Virus record (IMG/VR): IMGVR_UViG_3300050132_000509 | Coordinates: 1-37,506 of that record | From: a virus | Reading direction: 5' to 3' (one strand) | Length of the DNA: 37,506 nucleotides | In this document: positions 19,627-28,328 of the stretch, piece after piece | Numbering within the stretch: the first letter of the stretch is position 1 | How the letters are laid out: every line of letters begins with the position of its first letter | The notes under the pieces: model-generated | What the model was told of the DNA's origin: nothing | The model's input: only the letters and a program-made list of their open reading frames with translations | The model's database searches: none | Made by a program: the position numbers and the translations under genes

Positions 19627-20253
19627 TCAGGCGGCGAGCGGCAGGCGCTCGGCCTGGCGTTGCGGTGGGCGCAGGAAGCCGACGCGGGCTTCGCCGGCGT
19701 GGGCATGGTCCCAGATGAACCAGGCGTAGGCCTTGGAGGTGCCCTTGTCCCAGGCTTCAATCGGCGCATCGAAGTCGGGCGCAAGTTCGCCGGACGGACA
19801 GTTCACCCGCCAACTGAACACCAGCACGCGGGACAACGGCGTCGTCGGGAACCAGGCCCCGCGCTTGATGCCTTCCAGGAACGTCAGCGGCGCGAAGATC
19901 GCGACCTTCCTGGTGGTGAGCTTCAACGCGCGATCGATCCAGGCGTTGATGATCTTGTAGGGCGGGTTGCAGATGATGTTGTCCATCAACGGTGGACTGT
20001 GGCGCATGAAGTCGATACCGCCGCCGCCGAACCCGCGATCGACCAGGTCAGTGCCGAAGCCGTCGATCCCGCGTTCCTCGATCACACGCGGGATGGTGCC
20101 TCGGCCGCAGGCCGGGTCCCACACGCGGCCCTCGATCGGCTCGGCGTCCAGCAGCGCGCGCACGGCGTGCGGCGGCTCGACGTACCAGTCGTGGGCATTG
20201 CGGGCATAGCCGCTGCCCCGCGCGTTGCCGCGCGGCTTGCCCTTTGTGGTCAC
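19627..20253 (-). CDS. Adenine-specific DNA methyltransferase-like protein
   Basis: The 208-residue protein starts at a GTG overlapping the preceding stop (GTGA). Residues 46-53 (DPACGRGT) form the SAM-binding motif I, and residues 96-99 (NPPY) are the catalytic motif IV of N6-adenine or related amino methyltransferases. The C-terminal KAYAWFIWDHAH is common in small phage methyltransferases. No separate target-recognition domain is visible. It probably modifies phage DNA against host restriction; in Mu that job is done by the unrelated mom gene. Placement between the portal and F genes is unusual. Confidence 0.85.
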   Translation of the reverse strand: MTTKGKPRGNARGSGYARNAHDWYVEPPHAVRALLDAEPIEGRVWDPACGRGTIPRVIEERGIDGFGTDLVDRGFGGGGIDFMRHSPPLMDNIICNPPYKIINAWIDRALKLTTRKVAIFAPLTFLEGIKRGAWFPTTPLSRVLVFSWRVNCPSGELAPDFDAPIEAWDKGTSKAYAWFIWDHAHAGEARVGFLRPPQRQAERLPLAA

Positions 20254-20810
20254 CGGGTGACCAGGGCGCGGCAGTGGCGATCCTCGGCCAGCAGGAAGCC
20301 GAACAGCGGCCAGAGCTTGTTGAGCGCGTTGCCGTAGGCCAGCCCCTCGCCGATCTCCCGGTCGTAGTTCGCGGGGTCCACGCACGCCGACTCGCCGCGC
20401 ACCGAATAGCCGTTGTCCAGCGTGATGCTGCACAAGGTCACCGTCTCGTTCAGCCGCAGATAGGTGACGTCGCGGATCCGGCTCTCGATCGCTGCCTTTG
20501 TCACCTTCTCGCCCGGCTTGGCGGCGATCGCCGCGTCCAGGTCGCTCGGCAGGGCCCCCGGGGTCAAATTCTCCCGCTCCGGCCAGCGCCAGCCCGCGCA
20601 GACGTTCCGGACGCCTTTACCCAGGATGGCCCAGCCTAGAACCGAGGTCCGGACGCCGGGTCCTTCCCCATCAAAGAAGACAACAAGGTTGACGCAATCG
20701 TCAGTCCAGACGCGCGTGATGATCGCGGGATGGAACCGCGAGCCGTTCACCGCTCCCGCGACATCTGTGACATATACGACGATCCGCCCGATCGCCGGCT
20801 CCGTGCTCAT
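20250..20810 (-). CDS. Gp49-family phage protein with an extra N-terminal domain
   Basis: The 186-residue protein starts at an ATG overlapping the endolysin stop (ATGA). Residues about 98-178 match the Gp49/gp66 phage family (VTYLRLNETVTLCSITLDNG, then ACVDPANYDREIGEGLAYGNA and LWPLFGFLLAED). The N-terminal 85 residues (IGRIVVYV, SRFHPAIITRVWTDD, VNLVVFFDGEG) form a small beta-barrel-like module often found alone in phages. The two units look fused. The role is unknown; Gp49 proteins usually accompany phage lysis or accessory genes. Confidence 0.82.
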   Translation of the reverse strand: MSTEPAIGRIVVYVTDVAGAVNGSRFHPAIITRVWTDDCVNLVVFFDGEGPGVRTSVLGWAILGKGVRNVCAGWRWPERENLTPGALPSDLDAAIAAKPGEKVTKAAIESRIRDVTYLRLNETVTLCSITLDNGYSVRGESACVDPANYDREIGEGLAYGNALNKLWPLFGFLLAEDRHCRALVTR

Positions 20811-21295
20811 GTCGGCACCTTCGTCGCTTGCGCGATCCCCAGCGCGAGCTGAATGCCCGCCAGCTTCTCCGCCGCCGGCCACTGGATGCGCGCGCTGCCC
20901 TCGGCCAGCGCGATCGCGCCGACCATTGCCAGCATCGTCGGCGGCGAGTGCGGATTGACCGGGCCATTCGGCTGCACGCCGATCTGTCCGCACACCAGGG
21001 CGACGTAGCCCGGCGTGTTGTTGTTGTCCCCCGGCGGCGCATAGCGGTCGATGATGCGCTCGACCGTGTAGCATCCGTCCTTCTCGAAATATGTCAGCAG
21101 GCAGACGGCCAGCGCGCGCCAGCCCATCGTGCGGCTGTCGAAGATCGCGAAAGGGCCACCAGGTGCGTTATCGATGCCGGTCTGGCCGTTCCATTTCTGG
21201 CCGGCGGCCAGACAGCGCAGGTCGCCAGGGTTGTTGTTCCGCCACGGGCGCTCGAGCGTCCATGCGGGCGGCGGTGCAGCGGCAGGCGTGTTCAT
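20807..21295 (-). CDS. Endolysin-like / virion lysozyme-like protein (NNPGxLR family)
   Basis: The 162-residue protein starts RPWRNNNPGDLR (about 17-27) and carries the pattern GPFAIFDSRTMGWRALAVCLLTYF, TVERIIDRYAPPGDNNNT. This is the signature of a widespread phage protein family annotated as structural protein or peptidoglycan hydrolase. No signal peptide or transmembrane segment is seen, so a holin would be needed if it acts in lysis. The ATG overlaps the portal stop. It is separated from the membrane/holin cassette by the packaging genes, unlike in Mu, where lysis genes are grouped. Confidence 0.75.
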   Translation of the reverse strand: MNTPAAAPPPAWTLERPWRNNNPGDLRCLAAGQKWNGQTGIDNAPGGPFAIFDSRTMGWRALAVCLLTYFEKDGCYTVERIIDRYAPPGDNNNTPGYVALVCGQIGVQPNGPVNPHSPPTMLAMVGAIALAEGSARIQWPAAEKLAGIQLALGIAQATKVPT

Positions 21296-22905
21296 TTCTG
21301 TCCCCTCAGTTCTTCAACCAGGCTGGCCTGTCCGACCATCTCGGCCAGGGCCATGCCGCGCGCCATCGCCTCGGTGAATTCGGCGCGCGGCAGTTTCAGA
21401 TCGTGCAACCGGCTCGCCAGGTCGCGCATGTCGGTGGCGGCGTGGAGCGCGACGCGCACATGTTCGGTCAGCCCGTGCATCGCGCCGGCCGCATCGTCCG
21501 CAAGGCGCGTGGTCAGCGCGTCCAGCACGTCGTCCGGTGCCTCGCTGTGCCGGCTGATCAGGGCGCCGAGCCATGCCGGACGCTGGCTGAAGCCATCCAT
21601 CGGGAGTGCCTTCGCGGGCGTCGGGATCACCGGCTTCTCCACTGGAGCCGCCGCGCCGCCGACCACTTCGTCGCCGTCTTCCGGTTTGCTCAATCCCAAC
21701 CGCTCGCGGATCTCCGACGCCTTCACCTTCAGGCCCATGCTGCCCAGGTCGGCGACGGCCTCGACCACATCCTTGATCGGGATCTCGTTCGGACGCCCGA
21801 TCGTGATCGTCGGGTATTCTTTCTGCGGCCCGAACGTGAACGCGATCATCGGCGCGACGAGCTGCCGGTTGATCGTGACGTTCAGCAGGAAGGCGTCGAA
21901 CTTCTCGACGTCGTCTTCGCCGGCCCGGTGTTCGCGGCCGACCGCGTGGCCGCCGGCGATCGCTTCGGTGCCGGCCGTGCCGCCCAGGACGAGCTTCGAG
22001 ACCTCGCGGTTCAGCCAGTCCATGCGCTTTTCGTACAGCACGGCGCCGGCGGCCTTGTCCGAGTGCGTGACGAATTCCATCGTCATGCTTTCGGGGATGA
22101 TCGCCGCCACGTCGCCGGCGATCGACGACACCGCGCGCCACAGCACCCGCTTGTCGTCGTCGGACGCGCCCGGCCCGTACTTGCCCACGCGGATCGGCAG
22201 CCCATACGCCTGCACGAACAGCGCCCAATCCTTCAGCGTGAAGCTGGCGTAGCACCACAGGAACGCCACCGGCATCGTCAGGCCGGCGCGGACGGTGTTG
22301 CCGCTCTTGTAGGGATGCCGGTGCACCAGGAACTTGTGATCTTGTAGCGGCTCCAATCCCTTCTCGCTGCGCAGCCAGAGCGTGTTTCCGTCCTCGTAGG
22401 AGAACTCGAAGAACCGCTGCGGACGATATGCCAGCCGCGCCGGCCGGCTGATCCCGGGTTCCTGCTCCCAGATGATTTCCTGGACGGAGAAGCCTTTGCC
22501 GATCGCGTCGACCATGTCGAACAGAGCCAGCTGCAGCACGCCGGTCTTGATCCAGTCCCGCACGAATTCGGCGTGCTTGCGATATTCCGGGTTCTTCTCG
22601 TCGGCCGCCGCGACGGTGATCGGCATCTGCACCACCTGGCGCTTCCGCTTGCCCAGCACGGTGGCGTAATGGGGGAAGTGCTCCTCGATCTCCTCGGCCA
22701 GGACGAACCACTCGTAGCTGCTGCCGTTCTTCGCCGCCTTGACGATGGCGCCCAGGCGCTGCGGGTTGATGCCCCAGGCGATGTCGCCGGTGTATGGCGG
22801 CCGGGCGTATTGACCGCCGACGGGACTGATTTCCTGTTTCAGCGCGGCGATCTGCTCGCGCGGGATCGGTTTCCCGAACTGGTCTAAGAGGCCGCTAATC
22901 GCCAT
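21292..22905 (-). CDS. Portal protein (Mu gp29, DUF935 family)
   Basis: The 537-residue protein is the portal, through which DNA enters the head. Family features: the start ISGLLDQFGKPI, VGGQYARPPYTGDIAWGINPQRL, EHFPHYATVLGKRKRQV, a QEIIWEQE motif, PQRFFEFS, HPYKSGNTVRAGL, and LVLGGTAGTEA. The ATG at 22905 was preferred over a GTG six codons upstream because it creates a smaller overlap with the preceding gene; neither has a strong ribosome site. The C-terminal 120 residues (after about 430) are less conserved. Confidence 0.94.
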   Translation of the reverse strand: MAISGLLDQFGKPIPREQIAALKQEISPVGGQYARPPYTGDIAWGINPQRLGAIVKAAKNGSSYEWFVLAEEIEEHFPHYATVLGKRKRQVVQMPITVAAADEKNPEYRKHAEFVRDWIKTGVLQLALFDMVDAIGKGFSVQEIIWEQEPGISRPARLAYRPQRFFEFSYEDGNTLWLRSEKGLEPLQDHKFLVHRHPYKSGNTVRAGLTMPVAFLWCYASFTLKDWALFVQAYGLPIRVGKYGPGASDDDKRVLWRAVSSIAGDVAAIIPESMTMEFVTHSDKAAGAVLYEKRMDWLNREVSKLVLGGTAGTEAIAGGHAVGREHRAGEDDVEKFDAFLLNVTINRQLVAPMIAFTFGPQKEYPTITIGRPNEIPIKDVVEAVADLGSMGLKVKASEIRERLGLSKPEDGDEVVGGAAAPVEKPVIPTPAKALPMDGFSQRPAWLGALISRHSEAPDDVLDALTTRLADDAAGAMHGLTEHVRVALHAATDMRDLASRLHDLKLPRAEFTEAMARGMALAEMVGQASLVEELRGQK

Positions 22906-23182
22906 CTTGAAACTCGCTTTCACGCACGATCGGATCGTCGGGGTTTGTCGTCGGCCGCAGATGCGACGGCAGGCGGCGGCGGTAGTGCCAGGCCATGCGC
23001 GTCAGCATCAGCCGATCGGCGGTATCGAAGGTCGCGGGATCGCGGCGCAGGAAGACGAACTCATAGGAGCGTGGCGCGGCGGCCGAGCGAAGCCGCTCGC
23101 AGGTCACGCGGTCGCCGGCGACCAGCGCGGCGTGGACGCGCATGCCTTCCTCGGGGTCGGGTTCCGGTGCGGCGAAGGTCAT
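22895..23182 (-). CDS. Small protein between terminase and portal
   Basis: The 95-residue protein overlaps the terminase stop (ATGA) and its end overlaps the portal start. It is rich in Arg and acidic residues (GMRVHAALVAGDRVTCERLR, DRLMLTRMAWHYRRRLPSHLRP). I do not recognise the family, and Mu has no gene here. The close coupling to packaging genes and phage-like codon pattern suggest a real gene, perhaps a packaging accessory. Low confidence in function, higher in existence. Confidence 0.72.
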   Translation of the reverse strand: MTFAAPEPDPEEGMRVHAALVAGDRVTCERLRSAAAPRSYEFVFLRRDPATFDTADRLMLTRMAWHYRRRLPSHLRPTTNPDDPIVRESEFQDGD

Positions 23183-24735
23183 CGCGCCCAGTTCCCCCGA
23201 AGATCGGGCATCATGCCCGAGGTTGTTCCGCGTTCGTCTTCCCACTCGTCGGGCCGGTCGCGCCACGCGTGTTCGGCTTCCACCTGGCGCGGGCCGGCGG
23301 CCTGATAGCCGTATTCCTCCGGGTCGGCACAGCTCGCGCAATAGGCCAGCGCCAGCGCGATCGCGGCGTCTCCGTGGCGGCTCGCCTTCTCGTCCACGCG
23401 GGTGCGATCGGCGACCCGCGCCACGCCACGGATCAGCTTCAGGCTGCGCAGATCGGTGTGGATGTCGCGGTCCATCGGCAGCGTGGCCATCGCGTCTTCC
23501 AGCGCGGCCTTCATCGGCGGCATGTTCTGGCGATACCAGTCCTCGGTGAACCGCACCTCTTCGACGCGGGCGCCGTAGCGCTGCATCGTCACCTCGGCGA
23601 GGTAGGCGCCGTTGCCGCCCGCATCCAGCTTCACCGCGCGGAACCGGACGCGGTCCAGCAGGTAGTGCAGGATCTGTTTCTGCTGCTCGAACGGGACATT
23701 CCGCAGCTCGATCACCAGGCGCGTGTCGCGCACCATGCTGGTGGTGATCGCCAGCAGCCAGAACACCGTCAGGTCGCGGATGCGGCCGAAGTCGCCGCCC
23801 AGTGCGTGCAGCGCCTTCGGGTCGATCCGATCAGCGACGGGACGGAGGTTTTCCTCGATCCAGTCCTGCACCGTGGCGCGGCGCAGATGCTCCGGCCAGG
23901 TGCCCATGCCATCCGGCGCCGTGTAGCGCAGCACCGGGATGCCCTGGACGCTGCGCGCCTCGATCAGCACGCCGGTCAGATAGGCGCCGGTGGAAGGGTT
24001 GGGGATGACGTCCAGTTCCTCGGCGGCGCTGTCGCCGTATTTCGAGTAGATGTCGGCCATCCAGGCGGCTTCGCCTTCCTGGGTCCACTCGATCCCCATC
24101 TTCAGGCAGATGCGGCGATACAGTCCCTCGGCTACCGCTTCCTTGAACGTCAGCCGCTGCACGACGCCCGAACGCCGGCCGGCGCGGATCTCGTTGATCA
24201 GTTGGTTGAACGGGTTGGTTTCGCCATTGTGGGTGGAGACGACAACGACGCGCCCGCCCCACATCAGCAGCGCCATCGCCGCCTTCAGCACTTCCTCCAG
24301 ATCGTCCATGAATGCGGCCTCGTCCAGGATGACCAGCCCCTGCTTGCCGCGCAGCGCGCGGGCGACGGACGGCAGGGCGATCACCTCGAAGCCGGACGCG
24401 AACTTGATCCGGAAGGCGTTGATGTCTTTCTCGGGCCGTTCCGGATCGGTGAAGATGAACTCCTGCACCTCCGACGCCGCGACCTGCAGCGACTTGGCCC
24501 ACTCCGCGACGTAGTCGATGAACTCGCGGGTCATCTCCTTGTCGTAGCCCATATACAGGACATCCTGGCCGTGATCGGCGCGGCTCTTGGATGCCTCGGT
24601 CGCGGAAATCCCAGCCAGCGCCCAGGAGAACCCGGTGCGGCGGCTTTTCTCATCGACCACCAGGCGATTGGCCTCGATCGCGTGCCACAGGCGCTGCTGA
24701 TAGGGCAGGAAGACCGGAGGCAGAGCGGCTGTCAT
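23179..24735 (-). CDS. Large terminase subunit (Mu gp28)
   Basis: The 518-residue protein is the DNA packaging ATPase/nuclease. Near the N-terminus, residues 27-38 (VDEKSRRTGFSW) hold the variant Walker A seen in Mu-type terminases. GLVILDEAAFMDD (about 133-145, acidic pair 138/139) is Walker B, and VVVVSTHNGETN (173-184) is the coupling motif. GGDFGRIRDLTVFW (D315) starts the RNase H-like nuclease domain, with acidic residues later (KLDAGGNGAYLAE). The ATG overlaps the lipase stop (ATGA); an upstream ATG would lie inside that gene. Confidence 0.95.
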   Translation of the reverse strand: MTAALPPVFLPYQQRLWHAIEANRLVVDEKSRRTGFSWALAGISATEASKSRADHGQDVLYMGYDKEMTREFIDYVAEWAKSLQVAASEVQEFIFTDPERPEKDINAFRIKFASGFEVIALPSVARALRGKQGLVILDEAAFMDDLEEVLKAAMALLMWGGRVVVVSTHNGETNPFNQLINEIRAGRRSGVVQRLTFKEAVAEGLYRRICLKMGIEWTQEGEAAWMADIYSKYGDSAAEELDVIPNPSTGAYLTGVLIEARSVQGIPVLRYTAPDGMGTWPEHLRRATVQDWIEENLRPVADRIDPKALHALGGDFGRIRDLTVFWLLAITTSMVRDTRLVIELRNVPFEQQKQILHYLLDRVRFRAVKLDAGGNGAYLAEVTMQRYGARVEEVRFTEDWYRQNMPPMKAALEDAMATLPMDRDIHTDLRSLKLIRGVARVADRTRVDEKASRHGDAAIALALAYCASCADPEEYGYQAAGPRQVEAEHAWRDRPDEWEDERGTTSGMMPDLRGNWAR

Positions 24736-25355
24736 GCCGGCACCAGGGCGGCCGACAGCGCGGCCTGGTAGCCGGCGATGGCGTGATCGTCGATCGGGTT
24801 CCATGCCGGCTTGCCGATCCGCGTCCAGGCGCGGTCGTTCAGGAACGGCCAGCATGGCGCCTCCGGCACCGGATCGTCGCCGTTGCGGTAGCGGCGCCCC
24901 TCGATCGGCGCCAGCAGCGCGGCGAACGGCGCCATCCCCACGCGCAGCGCGCCGAAGGTGGTCAGCCGCGCCGGCACGATTCCGCGCGACTTCCCCAGCG
25001 CGCCGACGCCGAGCGCGAAGCCGCCGCCCAGGCTATGACCGCCCATCATGAAGCGGGGTGCACGGACCATGGCGTCGAAGAACTGCTGGAAGATCGCCTC
25101 AGCGCCGGTGATGACGCCGTCGTGGCAGCGTCCGACCTCGGGATGGTCCACCAGGTGCGACGGCCACGCGGAGAAATCCGTGAACCAGTCTTCCCAATGA
25201 TCGGGTCGCGTGCCGGGGAAAGCGGCGAATGTGATGCCGTTCTTCTCGGTCAGCACCACGCGCACGTCGCCGGCGACCAGGGTCGGCGTCAGGTCATAGC
25301 TGGCGGTCACGAACGAGCACAGGTCGGCGTCGAAGGCGAGGGATTGGTCAGGCAT
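24732..25355 (-). CDS. Class 3 lipase-like alpha/beta hydrolase
   Basis: The 207-residue protein has a complete lipase_3-like triad: GGHSLGGG with Ser108 in the nucleophile elbow, NGDDPVPEAP with Asp161 (the NxxDPVP motif of this family), and DDHAIAGYQ with His191. VLTEKNGITFAAFPGT (about 35-50) is the usual strand and oxyanion region. There is no signal peptide, so it acts in the cytoplasm or after lysis. It is inserted between the DUF3486 and terminase genes, overlapping both by 8 and 4 bp, so it is expressed with packaging genes. A role in lysis or envelope disruption is inference. Confidence 0.85.
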   Translation of the reverse strand: MPDQSLAFDADLCSFVTASYDLTPTLVAGDVRVVLTEKNGITFAAFPGTRPDHWEDWFTDFSAWPSHLVDHPEVGRCHDGVITGAEAIFQQFFDAMVRAPRFMMGGHSLGGGFALGVGALGKSRGIVPARLTTFGALRVGMAPFAALLAPIEGRRYRNGDDPVPEAPCWPFLNDRAWTRIGKPAWNPIDDHAIAGYQAALSAALVPA

Positions 25356-25941
25356 GGGCCGGCGCCTCCGCCTTCACGCCGAAGATCGCGGCCTTGATTG
25401 CGTCGGCCGTCTCGGCGCTGATCCCGCGTGCCTTCGTCACCGTCTCGACGGCGGCGACCGCGGCCTTCTTGGTCCGGTCCTCCGCCCGCTTTTCCACCTG
25501 CGCGGCGAAATCCGCGTTCGCCTTCTGCGCCTTCGACAGATGGTCGATCGCCTTCGACAGCAGCATGATCCCCTCGGGGTTCCCCGCCAGCGCCGCCGCG
25601 CCGTCCTTGTCCACGTCCTCGCCGTCGGCCGAGCGCATCTTCAGGTCCAGGATGGCGCTGTGCATGATCTCGATGTTCAGCCGCGCCGTTTCGGACTCGG
25701 GCGCATCGCCGAGCTGCTGCACCAGCGCCGTGGCGACCTCCCGCGAGCGGCGGATTTGCTCGGCCACGCGCTCCAGCCCCTTCACGTGCCGGCCCATGGC
25801 GGAGCGGCTGACCGTCGTCACCCCGTGCATCGTGGCAAGGTGCGCGACGATCTGGTCGATGGTGCAGCCCTGCATGCGCAGCCGGCCGATCTCGGACTGT
25901 ATCCGGGGCTCGAGCGTGTCGATCGACGACGGGCGGGTCAT
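25348..25941 (-). CDS. DUF3486 protein (Mu gp27), probable small terminase
   Basis: The 197-residue protein begins MTRPSSIDTLEPRIQSEIGRL and carries IDQIVAHLATMHGVTTVSRSAMGRHVKG, a helix-turn-helix of the DUF3486 family (about 20-50). It lies directly before the packaging genes as in Mu, and small-terminase function is assumed. The C-terminal third is Ala/Lys-rich and coiled-coil-like (ADFAAQVEKRAEDRTKKAAV). The ATG at 25941 was chosen because the longer frame would overlap the preceding gene by 56 bp. It is followed by an 8-bp overlap with the lipase gene. Confidence 0.88.
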   Translation of the reverse strand: MTRPSSIDTLEPRIQSEIGRLRMQGCTIDQIVAHLATMHGVTTVSRSAMGRHVKGLERVAEQIRRSREVATALVQQLGDAPESETARLNIEIMHSAILDLKMRSADGEDVDKDGAAALAGNPEGIMLLSKAIDHLSKAQKANADFAAQVEKRAEDRTKKAAVAAVETVTKARGISAETADAIKAAIFGVKAEAPAHA

Positions 25942-25945
25942 CGGA

Positions 25946-26257
25946 TCAGTCGTCGGGCTGAAGCTGCGCGATGCCGGCGTGCGGACGTCCGTTCGCGACA
26001 TCCTGCCCGGCGAGGAGCAGATGCGCGATCCACAGATCGCCCGTGGCCTTCGGCATCTTTTCGACGCGGATCAGGCCGTGCTGCTCCAGGAATTGCAGGT
26101 CGGCGCGGATCAGGTCCTTCGTGGCGCCGGGACTGCCGAGCCGCTCCAGCACCTGACGGACGATGTCCTCGTTCAGGTTGTAGCCCGGGACCTCCGCCAG
26201 CGTGCGCAGCATCGCCAGGCGCCGGTCCTCGGCGAGGACTTTCGTCAGGTTCATCAT
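25946..26257 (-). CDS. Winged-helix phage protein (Mu gp26, VpaChn25_0724-like)
   Basis: The 103-residue protein has a clear winged-helix layout: LAMLRTLAEVPGYNLNEDIVRQVLERLG, TKDLIRADLQFLEQHGLIRVEKM. It lies between DUF2730 and DUF3486 proteins, the same order as gp25-gp26-gp27 in Mu. It starts in an ATGA overlap with the DUF2730 stop. Role unknown; it could be a packaging regulator or DNA-binding adaptor. No N-terminal signal is present. Confidence 0.87.
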   Translation of the reverse strand: MMNLTKVLAEDRRLAMLRTLAEVPGYNLNEDIVRQVLERLGSPGATKDLIRADLQFLEQHGLIRVEKMPKATGDLWIAHLLLAGQDVANGRPHAGIAQLQPDD

Positions 26258-26592
26258 TGTTGTTTTTCCCAGTCGAGCCGTGCGTTGACGAACAGGGTCA
26301 ACTGCCTTTCGATGCGGATCAGGCTTTCTTTTAGCCCCTGCGTGTGGGCGTTCCCCACCGCGACATCGCGCGCGACATTGGCGACCTTGTCGCTGAGCCC
26401 GTTGAAATCGTCGTGGCTGGGAATAAGCTGCAAGCGGGTCTCGACAACGCCCAGGCGCTCCACCGCGTCGTCATGCGCCGCCTTGGTGACGAAATCGTTC
26501 GCCAGCCTGCCGCGCAGCGTCCAGAACAGGATGCCCATAACGAAACCGCCGACCACCGTCATCGCGGCGAAATCCGACCACGTCATGTTCAT
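26254..26592 (-). CDS. DUF2730 membrane protein (Mu gp25)
   Basis: The 112-residue protein has one transmembrane segment (residues about 7-27, FAAMTVVGGFVMGILFWTL) followed by a long helical coiled-coil region (DDAVERLGVVETRLQLIPSHDDFNGLSDKV...), the layout of DUF2730. The start ATG overlaps the TraR-like gene stop (ATGA). In Mu-like phages it lies beside lysis and packaging genes; a spanin- or Rz-like role has been suggested for such layouts but is not proven. Confidence 0.85.
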   Translation of the reverse strand: MNMTWSDFAAMTVVGGFVMGILFWTLRGRLANDFVTKAAHDDAVERLGVVETRLQLIPSHDDFNGLSDKVANVARDVAVGNAHTQGLKESLIRIERQLTLFVNARLDWEKQQ

Positions 26593-26802: not shown

Positions 26803-27567
26803 TCAGTTCGGTGCGGCCAGCGTGGCTGCGGTGGCCGGCGTCGGTATCGGCGTCACGGATACGGCTGACGGCATCGGTGGAACCGGCAGCGCGGCCGGGG
26901 TCGCGGGCACCACCGGCGCGGCGGTGGCTGTCTCCGCCACGGGCGTGCCGCCCAGGTTGGCGCAGAACTTCACCACGTTTGGATGCACCAGCGCATTGTC
27001 GATGCTGACGGCAATGGATGCCTGTGGCACCAGCGTGGCCAGCACCGGCGCGGCGATCGGCTGCACCACCCCATCGACCAGGCATGCCGCCTGCTCGACG
27101 GTCTGGATGTCCGTCTGCATCTGCGCCTTCTGCGCTGGGGTCATGCTGCATGCCGACAGACCGAGAGCGACCATCAGGAGAAGCGCGCCAAGCGTCGATG
27201 CAATGGCGCCCGTGCCCGTCCCCAGCTGCGCTACCGCAGGATCAGGCGCCGGCTTCGCAGGCTTCAGGTCGGTGAGAAACCGCAGAGCATCGCGCAGGAT
27301 CTGCGGCAGCGCCGTGGTCAGCGCGTGGTTCGCGGTGTCCTTCACCACTTCCATCGCCAGCGCCTGGGCATCCGCCGCGGCCTGGCTGTTGTCCGGCAGC
27401 ACCAGATGCACGACGCCGAACACCACGCCGCCGAAGGCGATGATCGCCGAGACGCTGCCGCCCTCATAGGCCGCGAGCGCCGAGGCGATCAGGCCCAGGA
27501 TCGTGCCGATACCGAGGATTGTGCTTGGCTGGCGCACCCAGCCACGAAAATCGACGTCCATGTCCAC
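26803..27567 (-). CDS. Holin-like membrane protein fused to a lipobox-like domain
   Basis: The 254-residue protein (GTG start at 27567, or ATG two codons later at 27561) is the first gene after palindrome A. Two hydrophobic segments near the N-terminus (about 15-33, TILGIGTILGLIASALAA; and 37-56) resemble a small holin. After a hydrophilic linker, a third segment (about 120-138) ends LGLSACS at Cys140, a lipobox-like LSAC. The last 100 residues are Ala/Pro/Val-rich. This looks like a holin-like part joined to a lipoprotein-like part in one frame. A GGAG sits 4 nt before the GTG and 10 nt before the ATG. The start is uncertain. Confidence 0.7.
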   Translation of the reverse strand: MDMDVDFRGWVRQPSTILGIGTILGLIASALAAYEGGSVSAIIAFGGVVFGVVHLVLPDNSQAAADAQALAMEVVKDTANHALTTALPQILRDALRFLTDLKPAKPAPDPAVAQLGTGTGAIASTLGALLLMVALGLSACSMTPAQKAQMQTDIQTVEQAACLVDGVVQPIAAPVLATLVPQASIAVSIDNALVHPNVVKFCANLGGTPVAETATAAPVVPATPAALPVPPMPSAVSVTPIPTPATAATLAAPN

Positions 27568-27693: not shown

Positions 27694-28074
27694 TCAGAAG
27701 CGGAAGGCGACCTGCCTGTTCGATTGCGCGTCGCGCTTCAGGCGGCGCCAGACGGTATCGGCATGCAGCCCGACCTTGCGCGCGATCTCGGCGTGCGTCA
27801 GGCCGCGACTCGCATATAGCGCGGTTCGCCAGTCCTTGCACAAGGGGACGCTGATATAGCCGCCGCCGAAGCCCCTGATAAGCGCCTTGGCCATCGCCTC
27901 GCCGAATTCGGCTTCCAGGTCGGCGCGCAGCTTTTCGCTGGAATTGTTGACGCCCAGCGCAACCCACAGTTTGGTGCCGCCCCGCGCCTCGATCAGCCGC
28001 AGTGTGTCGTCGAGGCCGAGGACCTCGATCAGCAGGCTGAGACTCTCGGGCGGCGGGGGCGGTTGATTGGTCAC
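27694..28074 (-). CDS. mor: Mor/C-family transcription activator
   Basis: The 126-residue protein, started by a GTG overlapping the previous stop (GTGA), matches Mu Mor (129 residues) in size and layout. An N-terminal helical dimerisation part is followed by the beta strand and linker GGGYISVP (about 70-77), then a C-terminal helix-turn-helix (LTHAEIARKVGLHADTVWRRLKRD, about 93-116). It is the last gene of the early operon, as in Mu. No second Mor/C protein is seen in the window, so it may activate all late promoters directly. Confidence 0.93.
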   Translation of the reverse strand: MTNQPPPPPESLSLLIEVLGLDDTLRLIEARGGTKLWVALGVNNSSEKLRADLEAEFGEAMAKALIRGFGGGYISVPLCKDWRTALYASRGLTHAEIARKVGLHADTVWRRLKRDAQSNRQVAFRF

Positions 28075-28328
28075 AGCGCGGCTATCTGCCCGGTCTGCTC
28101 GTCGAACCGCAGCAGGCATGTGCGCTTCAGCGTCACCACCAGTTCGATCGAGCGGCGGGACCGCCAGACGAGGCGCAAGGGAAACACTCCGTCCCGCCGC
28201 CGCCGCGATATCCGGATCGGCTGCAGCACGAACCCGGCGGCCTGCAGCGTCGCATGCAGATCGACCAGGCCGGAGAGCGACAGTAGCTGGTGCAGCTGCA
28301 CCGTGGCCGTCTTGCCGAGGGCGCTCAT
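28071..28328 (-). CDS. Small early protein, basic
   Basis: This 85-residue protein overlaps both neighbours (ATGA start; GTGA with mor). It has a central basic block (ISRRRRDG) between two hydrophobic stretches and ends DEQTGQIAAL. I do not recognise a family. Its first eight codons (MSALGKTAT) repeat those of the preceding gene at the DNA level, as if one gene start had been copied to the other. Function unknown. Confidence 0.7.
   Translation of the reverse strand: MSALGKTATVQLHQLLSLSGLVDLHATLQAAGFVLQPIRISRRRRDGVFPLRLVWRSRRSIELVVTLKRTCLLRFDEQTGQIAAL
28303..28328 (-). repeat. 26-bp direct repeat at a gene start, copy 1
   Basis: These 26 bases cover the ATG and first codons of the 85-residue gene. 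They match 28554-28579, the start of the preceding gene, at 24 of 26 positions; 15 bases are identical in a row (GTGGCCGTCTTGCCG on the plus strand). The copies lie 251 bp apart. Confidence 0.85.

Follow-up and report, generated by a model that had tools for sequence, protein, structure and literature searches.

What role could a lipase gene play among the packaging genes of a Mu-like phage? The question is raised by the stretch of DNA analyzed here, called the window, which comprises the 37,506 nucleotides of IMG/VR virus record IMGVR_UViG_3300050132_000509. The carrier is a Mu-type transposable phage: homologues of Mu gp27, the terminase large subunit (TerL) and the portal protein lie in Mu order in this record, accompanied by a Mor/C-type late activator. 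A DNA-identical lipase gene was found in an Acetobacteraceae MAG (isolate palsa_911), the contig of which equals the window at 100% from position 1362 to the right end in the stretches compared, and then runs on for about 22 kb with genes read as chromosomal, such as one for a PtsI-like protein (recognized by eye). The host is an acid-soil bacterium of the Acetobacteraceae. The late genes that concern the question are the following:

27694..28140, minus strand: Mor/C-type activator of late transcription, immediately upstream of the genes for lysis and packaging
26803..27567, minus strand: holin-like N-terminus (two transmembrane segments), resembling its holin-like counterpart in Acetobacteraceae lysis cassettes and fused to a lipobox-like (LSAC) segment
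26589-26801, late operon: DksA/TraR zinc-finger protein (Pfam 1e-9, PHROG 54)
26254..26592, minus strand: Mu gp25-like protein (PHROG 736), one transmembrane segment and then a long polar region
25946..26257, minus strand: Mu gp26-like gene (PHROG 436, VpaChn25_0724 family)
25348..26001, minus strand: Mu gp27-like gene (Pfam Phage_Mu_Gp27, formerly DUF3486; PHROG terminase small subunit)
24732..25355, minus strand: predicted class 3 lipase gene, 207 aa, ATG start, without export signal
25032-25034, 24873-24875 and 24783-24785, minus strand: codons of the predicted lipase triad Ser108, Asp161 and His191, respectively
23179..24735, minus strand: TerL, Mu gp28-like
21292..22923, minus strand: Mu-type portal protein
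20807..21295, minus strand: probable endolysin (PHROG 873), relocated to the junction of portal and gpF
20250-20813: N4 gp49/Sf6 gene-66 type gene, after the portal

An ORF with a methyltransferase-like NPPY motif (CNPPY) also lies at 19627-20433, between the cargo genes and gpF. The lysis genes of the window are scattered over the late operon, with the holin-like gene at 26803-27567, the lipase between gp27 and TerL, and the endolysin after the portal. The lipase belongs to the same late unit as the holin-like and endolysin genes; its direct neighbors are packaging genes, and no lysis gene adjoins it. The product of 26803-27567 had no match in Pfam or PHROG.

The lipase is tightly embedded in this operon. 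The original prediction held that its reading frame overlaps both the gp27-like (DUF3486) and the terminase genes, and this is accurate: the lipase ATG sits 8 bp within the gp27-like gene, and the lipase TGA (24732-24734) forms a 4-bp ATGA overlap with the TerL ATG (24733-24735). No promoter-like site was found at the lipase in a scan for sites of the sigma-70 type. The statement that Mu has nothing at this place is right for the Mu-group phage D108, in which only 7 nt separate the end of gene 27 (12940) from the start of gene 28 (12948), leaving no room for a gene. A hydrophobic N-terminus, a transmembrane segment and a lipobox were all looked for in the lipase protein, and none was found, as expected from the claim that a secretion signal is absent. 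Lipobox detection, like gene calling near lipases, was performed with simple scripts.

The best reading of the product is a predicted class 3 serine lipase, which could be a lipase, an esterase or a phospholipase. The matches lie far above chance level: the protein is recognized by Pfam Lipase_3 (PF01764) with an E-value of 5e-10 (39.8 bits, against a cut-off of 22) and PHROG 21992 'esterase/lipase' at 1e-17; solved class 3 lipases were matched at 1e-4 with the single sequence and at 3e-24 with a 53-row profile. The three residues first proposed as the triad were correctly numbered and occupy the class 3 lipase positions. Ser108 is found in GHSLGG, Asp161 in NGDDPVP and His191 in DDHAIAGY, and all three are invariant across alignments of 5, 19 and 53 homologues. 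The catalytic residues of solved lipases align with Ser108 and Asp161 in both sequence and profile alignments; the assignment of His191 is made by position and full-length structural alignment only. Structure prediction followed by comparison with class 3 lipases, a check proposed along with the original prediction, gave a favorable if indirect answer: the condition set for refutation, triad residues that do not come together in the model, is countered by a confident predicted fold and by the invariance of the three residues in the alignment. The AlphaFold model built from the 53-sequence alignment reached a pLDDT of 92.8 and a pTM of 0.91, remedying an earlier model that was based on only four distinct homologues and was poor (pLDDT 66). 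Fungal class 3 lipases ranked at the top of the Foldseek results, and VIA-align of the model gave a Z of 21.7 with Thermomyces lanuginosus lipase (191 residues, 2.4 A) and a Z near 18 with phospholipase A1 structures. The sole stretch of lower confidence, residues 51-70, may correspond to the lid, which is expected at this place in class 3 lipases.

Between the window and the Mu-like relative L004, the lipase shows a dN of 0.45 and a dS of 0.91, and this lower dN implies purifying selection on the gene. Selection appears weaker on the lipase than on its neighbors, since gp27 and TerL have a dN of about 0.25. Such faster change of the protein, together with some residues that deviate from the consensus of the family (FPGT in the window lipase instead of FRGT), could be taken as signs of an inactive or decaying piece of cargo; however, with dN below dS, an open frame, an intact triad and a confident fold, decay is a most improbable explanation.

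The predicted enzyme shares the GxSxG elbow, the Ser-Asp-His positions and the alpha/beta-hydrolase fold with PF01764 enzymes such as the lipases of Thermomyces lanuginosus and Rhizomucor miehei, feruloyl esterase A and plant phospholipase A1. It differs from them in its size (about 200 aa, compared with 260-300 or more), in the lack of a secretion signal, and in its location in a phage late operon or lysis cassette. Its own compact family is PHROG 21992, in which the triad is conserved and which includes gp42 of Burkholderia phage BgManors32 and gp14 of Shewanella phage vB_Sb_QDWS. Most class 3 lipases across Pseudomonadota turned out to be longer chromosomal proteins outside this compact phage group.

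A lipase is present in 6 of 31 TerL-related viral records, one of which is a near-identical twin of the window. Searching for homologues in other transposable phages had been advised at the outset, and Mu-like relatives L004, L006-L009, L153 and L154 do carry the gene. These relatives were reached only via the terminase, family alignments and intermediate homologues; a direct tblastn search with the window lipase gave no match in INPHARED phages or PLSDB plasmids, and a gp27 scan of viral contigs returned the twin record only. The lipase lies between gp27 and TerL in L004 and between the portal and gpF in L006-L009. In L153 and L154, the genes GH108, 26803-27567 homologue, gp25, gp27, lipase and TerL follow one another in one direction.

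The gap between gp27 and TerL measures between 9 bp and 2.2 kb and is filled with unrelated cargo in different phages. This slot is also variable in L005, L010, L013, L014, L015, L024 and L028, with DUF1643 in L005 and DUF6527 in L014. The gp49/Sf6 gene-66 type gene, which lies after the portal in the window, fills the gp27/TerL slot in L007-L009, suggesting that cargo has been exchanged between these two junctions. In L013, a homologue of the window endolysin directly precedes a homologue of the holin-like gene 26803-27567. Since lipase, endolysin and gp49/Sf6-type genes are found at differing junctions, lysis and cargo genes appear to move among them.

In relatives, the slot of the lipase varies and contains other cargo, as might be expected for a moron, or lysogenic-conversion gene. 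The lipase would then alter the lipids or surface of the lysogen, for example to block superinfection, and phage lipases have been suggested to modify O-antigen (PMC10975011). The 8- and 4-bp overlaps with late genes and the lack of a promoter-like site in the sigma-70 type scan argue against this explanation, as do the lack of an export signal with which to reach the surface and the lysis genes that neighbor the lipase in relatives. Such a role is therefore unlikely, and alteration of lysogen membranes, one of two functions originally offered for the gene, is disfavored. The other function, a role in release, is supported by the lysis-gene neighborhoods of related lipases, in which lipoprotein-like, endolysin, holin-like and spanin genes are found upstream.

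These neighborhoods are seen first in the family of the host. In a sample of 299 Acetobacteraceae genomes, 14 contained a lipase match at 1e-10, the window's host MAG included. Five of the loci (L087-L091) have the same order: transmembrane protein, holin-like protein, lipoprotein, GH108 endolysin, lipase and a conserved downstream gene. The lipase overlaps the endolysin stop in these loci, and the holin-like protein is related to the N-terminus of 26803-27567. In L092 the lipase adjoins GH108; L086 is without GH108. Lipases of Mu-like phages and of the Acetobacteraceae cassettes fall into one supported clade of the tree (97/88). In L155, GH108, a 67-aa lipoprotein-like gene, the lipase and a 26803-27567 homologue lie side by side. 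In BgManors32 and vB_Sb_QDWS, a small transmembrane gene, a lipoprotein gene and the lipase gene (4-bp overlap) lie downstream of the endolysin. The lipase is thus coupled directly to a lipoprotein gene in these two phages, whereas the window lipase is placed between gp27 and TerL, apart from the holin-like and endolysin genes.

Compact class 3 lipases of this kind form a large family, with more than 500 related viral-contig stretches in one scan (the best 80 of 535 stretches were kept) and 63 loci from a further scan. The 159 loci of the neighborhood set were reduced to 64 clusters at 80% identity, although even then the viral loci do not count as independent samples. In 56 of the 64 clusters a gene on the same strand lay no more than 200 bp upstream of the lipase, and this gene was lipoprotein-like in 27 of the 56, compared with 19 of 485 (3.9%) other nearby same-strand genes (Fisher P 4e-18). 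Among chromosomal class 3 lipases, the upstream gene was lipoprotein-like in 0 of 27. The paired loci occur in at least four parts of the tree, namely the BgManors32-like clade, a marine clade, L155 and the Acetobacteraceae; many of them belong to one clade and are therefore not independent. When the C-terminus of 26803-27567 was compared with the lipoproteins of the BgManors32-like clade, no relation was detectable. When 113 upstream proteins were tallied by PHROG and Pfam family, endolysins led (GH24, GH108, GH19 and others) and Rz-like spanins were also present; holin-like proteins cluster upstream of related lipases as well. The lipases of P-SSM2 and Cr-LKS4 are located away from annotated lysis genes.

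Two further explanations can be weighed against these neighborhoods. The position of the window lipase among the TerL, portal and gpF genes, and that of its homologues between the portal and gpF in L006-L009, would suit a virion-associated enzyme, carried as head or tail cargo and used at entry or DNA delivery. In most other lineages, however, the lipase is surrounded not by virion genes but by endolysin, holin-like and lipoprotein genes, which renders virion cargo decidedly unlikely. Phospholipase-like effectors occur in anti-phage systems, and a protein without an export signal might similarly serve defense or host takeover as a cytoplasmic effector, hitting inner-membrane phospholipids from inside. 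A very low probability is given to this role, because no sensor, cyclase or antitoxin partner was found beside the lipase and related lipases are recurrently paired with lysis genes.

Because related lipase genes stand beside lysis genes in many phages, the window lipase most likely serves as an additional enzyme in breaking the envelope and releasing the virus. More generally, the compact, signal-less class 3 serine lipase is probably a part of the phage lysis program and attacks envelope lipids. Judging from its gene position, the lipase would be a late product of the lysis-packaging transcript, synthesized in the cytoplasm. With no export signal, it could gain access to the envelope only through the holin opening, once the inner membrane has been breached, as for an endolysin of the lambda type. 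Ester-linked envelope lipids would then be hydrolyzed and, together with the breakdown of peptidoglycan by the endolysin, this would weaken the membranes, open the cell and free the virions. The small lipoprotein that is co-encoded in many relatives might, speculatively, place or activate the lipase at the outer membrane.

Mycobacteriophage Lysin B, a mycolylarabinogalactan esterase, offers a parallel as a phage serine esterase of the alpha/beta-hydrolase type directed against an outer lipid layer at lysis; the two are likened by function, not by sequence. Lysin B acts on mycolic acids, whereas the host of the window belongs to the Acetobacteraceae, which are not known to have mycolic acids. 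The step proposed for the lipase, disruption of the outer membrane once the peptidoglycan has been broken down, is that of spanins (Rz/Rz1) and other outer-membrane disruption proteins. Spanins, however, are membrane-anchored and are not enzymes, while the window lipase has neither a transmembrane segment nor a lipobox. Replacement of spanins by the lipase was considered and found no support in its simple form, since some loci carry both. The lipase and small lipoprotein of the lysis cassette might even represent a dedicated step for breaking envelope phospholipids that is widespread in Gram-negative phages, a counterpart of Lysin B that could supplement spanins or serve in their place; this broader proposal is put forward only tentatively. 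The Photorhabdus lipase Pdl1, cited in PMC10847048, has been proposed to aid the release of large protein cargo through the envelope. It resembles the window lipase in its proposed link to envelope release and differs in not being described as phage-encoded. In Yersinia entomophaga, release required a lysis cassette, and the lipase-like genes that were removed were not needed for it (PMC10847048).

A 2024 review describes lipases as rare in phage genomes and their role as yet to be elucidated (PMC10975011). The open-access papers searched did not describe any class 3 lipase within a lysis cassette of a Gram-negative phage, and they assigned no role to phage lipases. The window protein is a new member of the already known PF01764 enzyme family; what is new is its probable place in the lysis program and, in many lineages, the accompanying lipoprotein. 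This pairing with the lysis module and a lipoprotein is the interesting part of the finding. The compact family occurs in hundreds of viral-contig stretches, and its neighbors provide a concrete, testable role. If the proposed role is true, enzymes that attack membrane lipids can take part when phages lyse Gram-negative cells, in many cases alongside a lipoprotein; this would bear on the understanding of lysis and on the search for envelope-active enzymes.

Several minor observations were made on the related loci. Phage-like clusters with capsid-, contractile-tail- and baseplate-like genes and a lysis cassette are present in Acetobacteraceae chromosomes (L090, L102, L103; L086, L106; L088, L104). 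Their host flanks differ, with an hrcA-like gene in L086 and a penicillin-binding-protein-like gene in L088. No integrase was recognized by eye in these clusters, which are possibly domesticated or gene-transfer-agent-like elements. In Acetobacteraceae cassettes, the lipase is followed by a PHROG 19005 gene that encodes about 250 aa (for example, L086 7359-8120), and homologues of this gene are found between TerL and the portal in the Mu-like L012 (6572-7816) and after the lipase in L182 (5468-6328). A single Rhizobiales MAG (G033) contains three different lipases of the compact family, on contigs C123, C654 and C462 (L095-L097).
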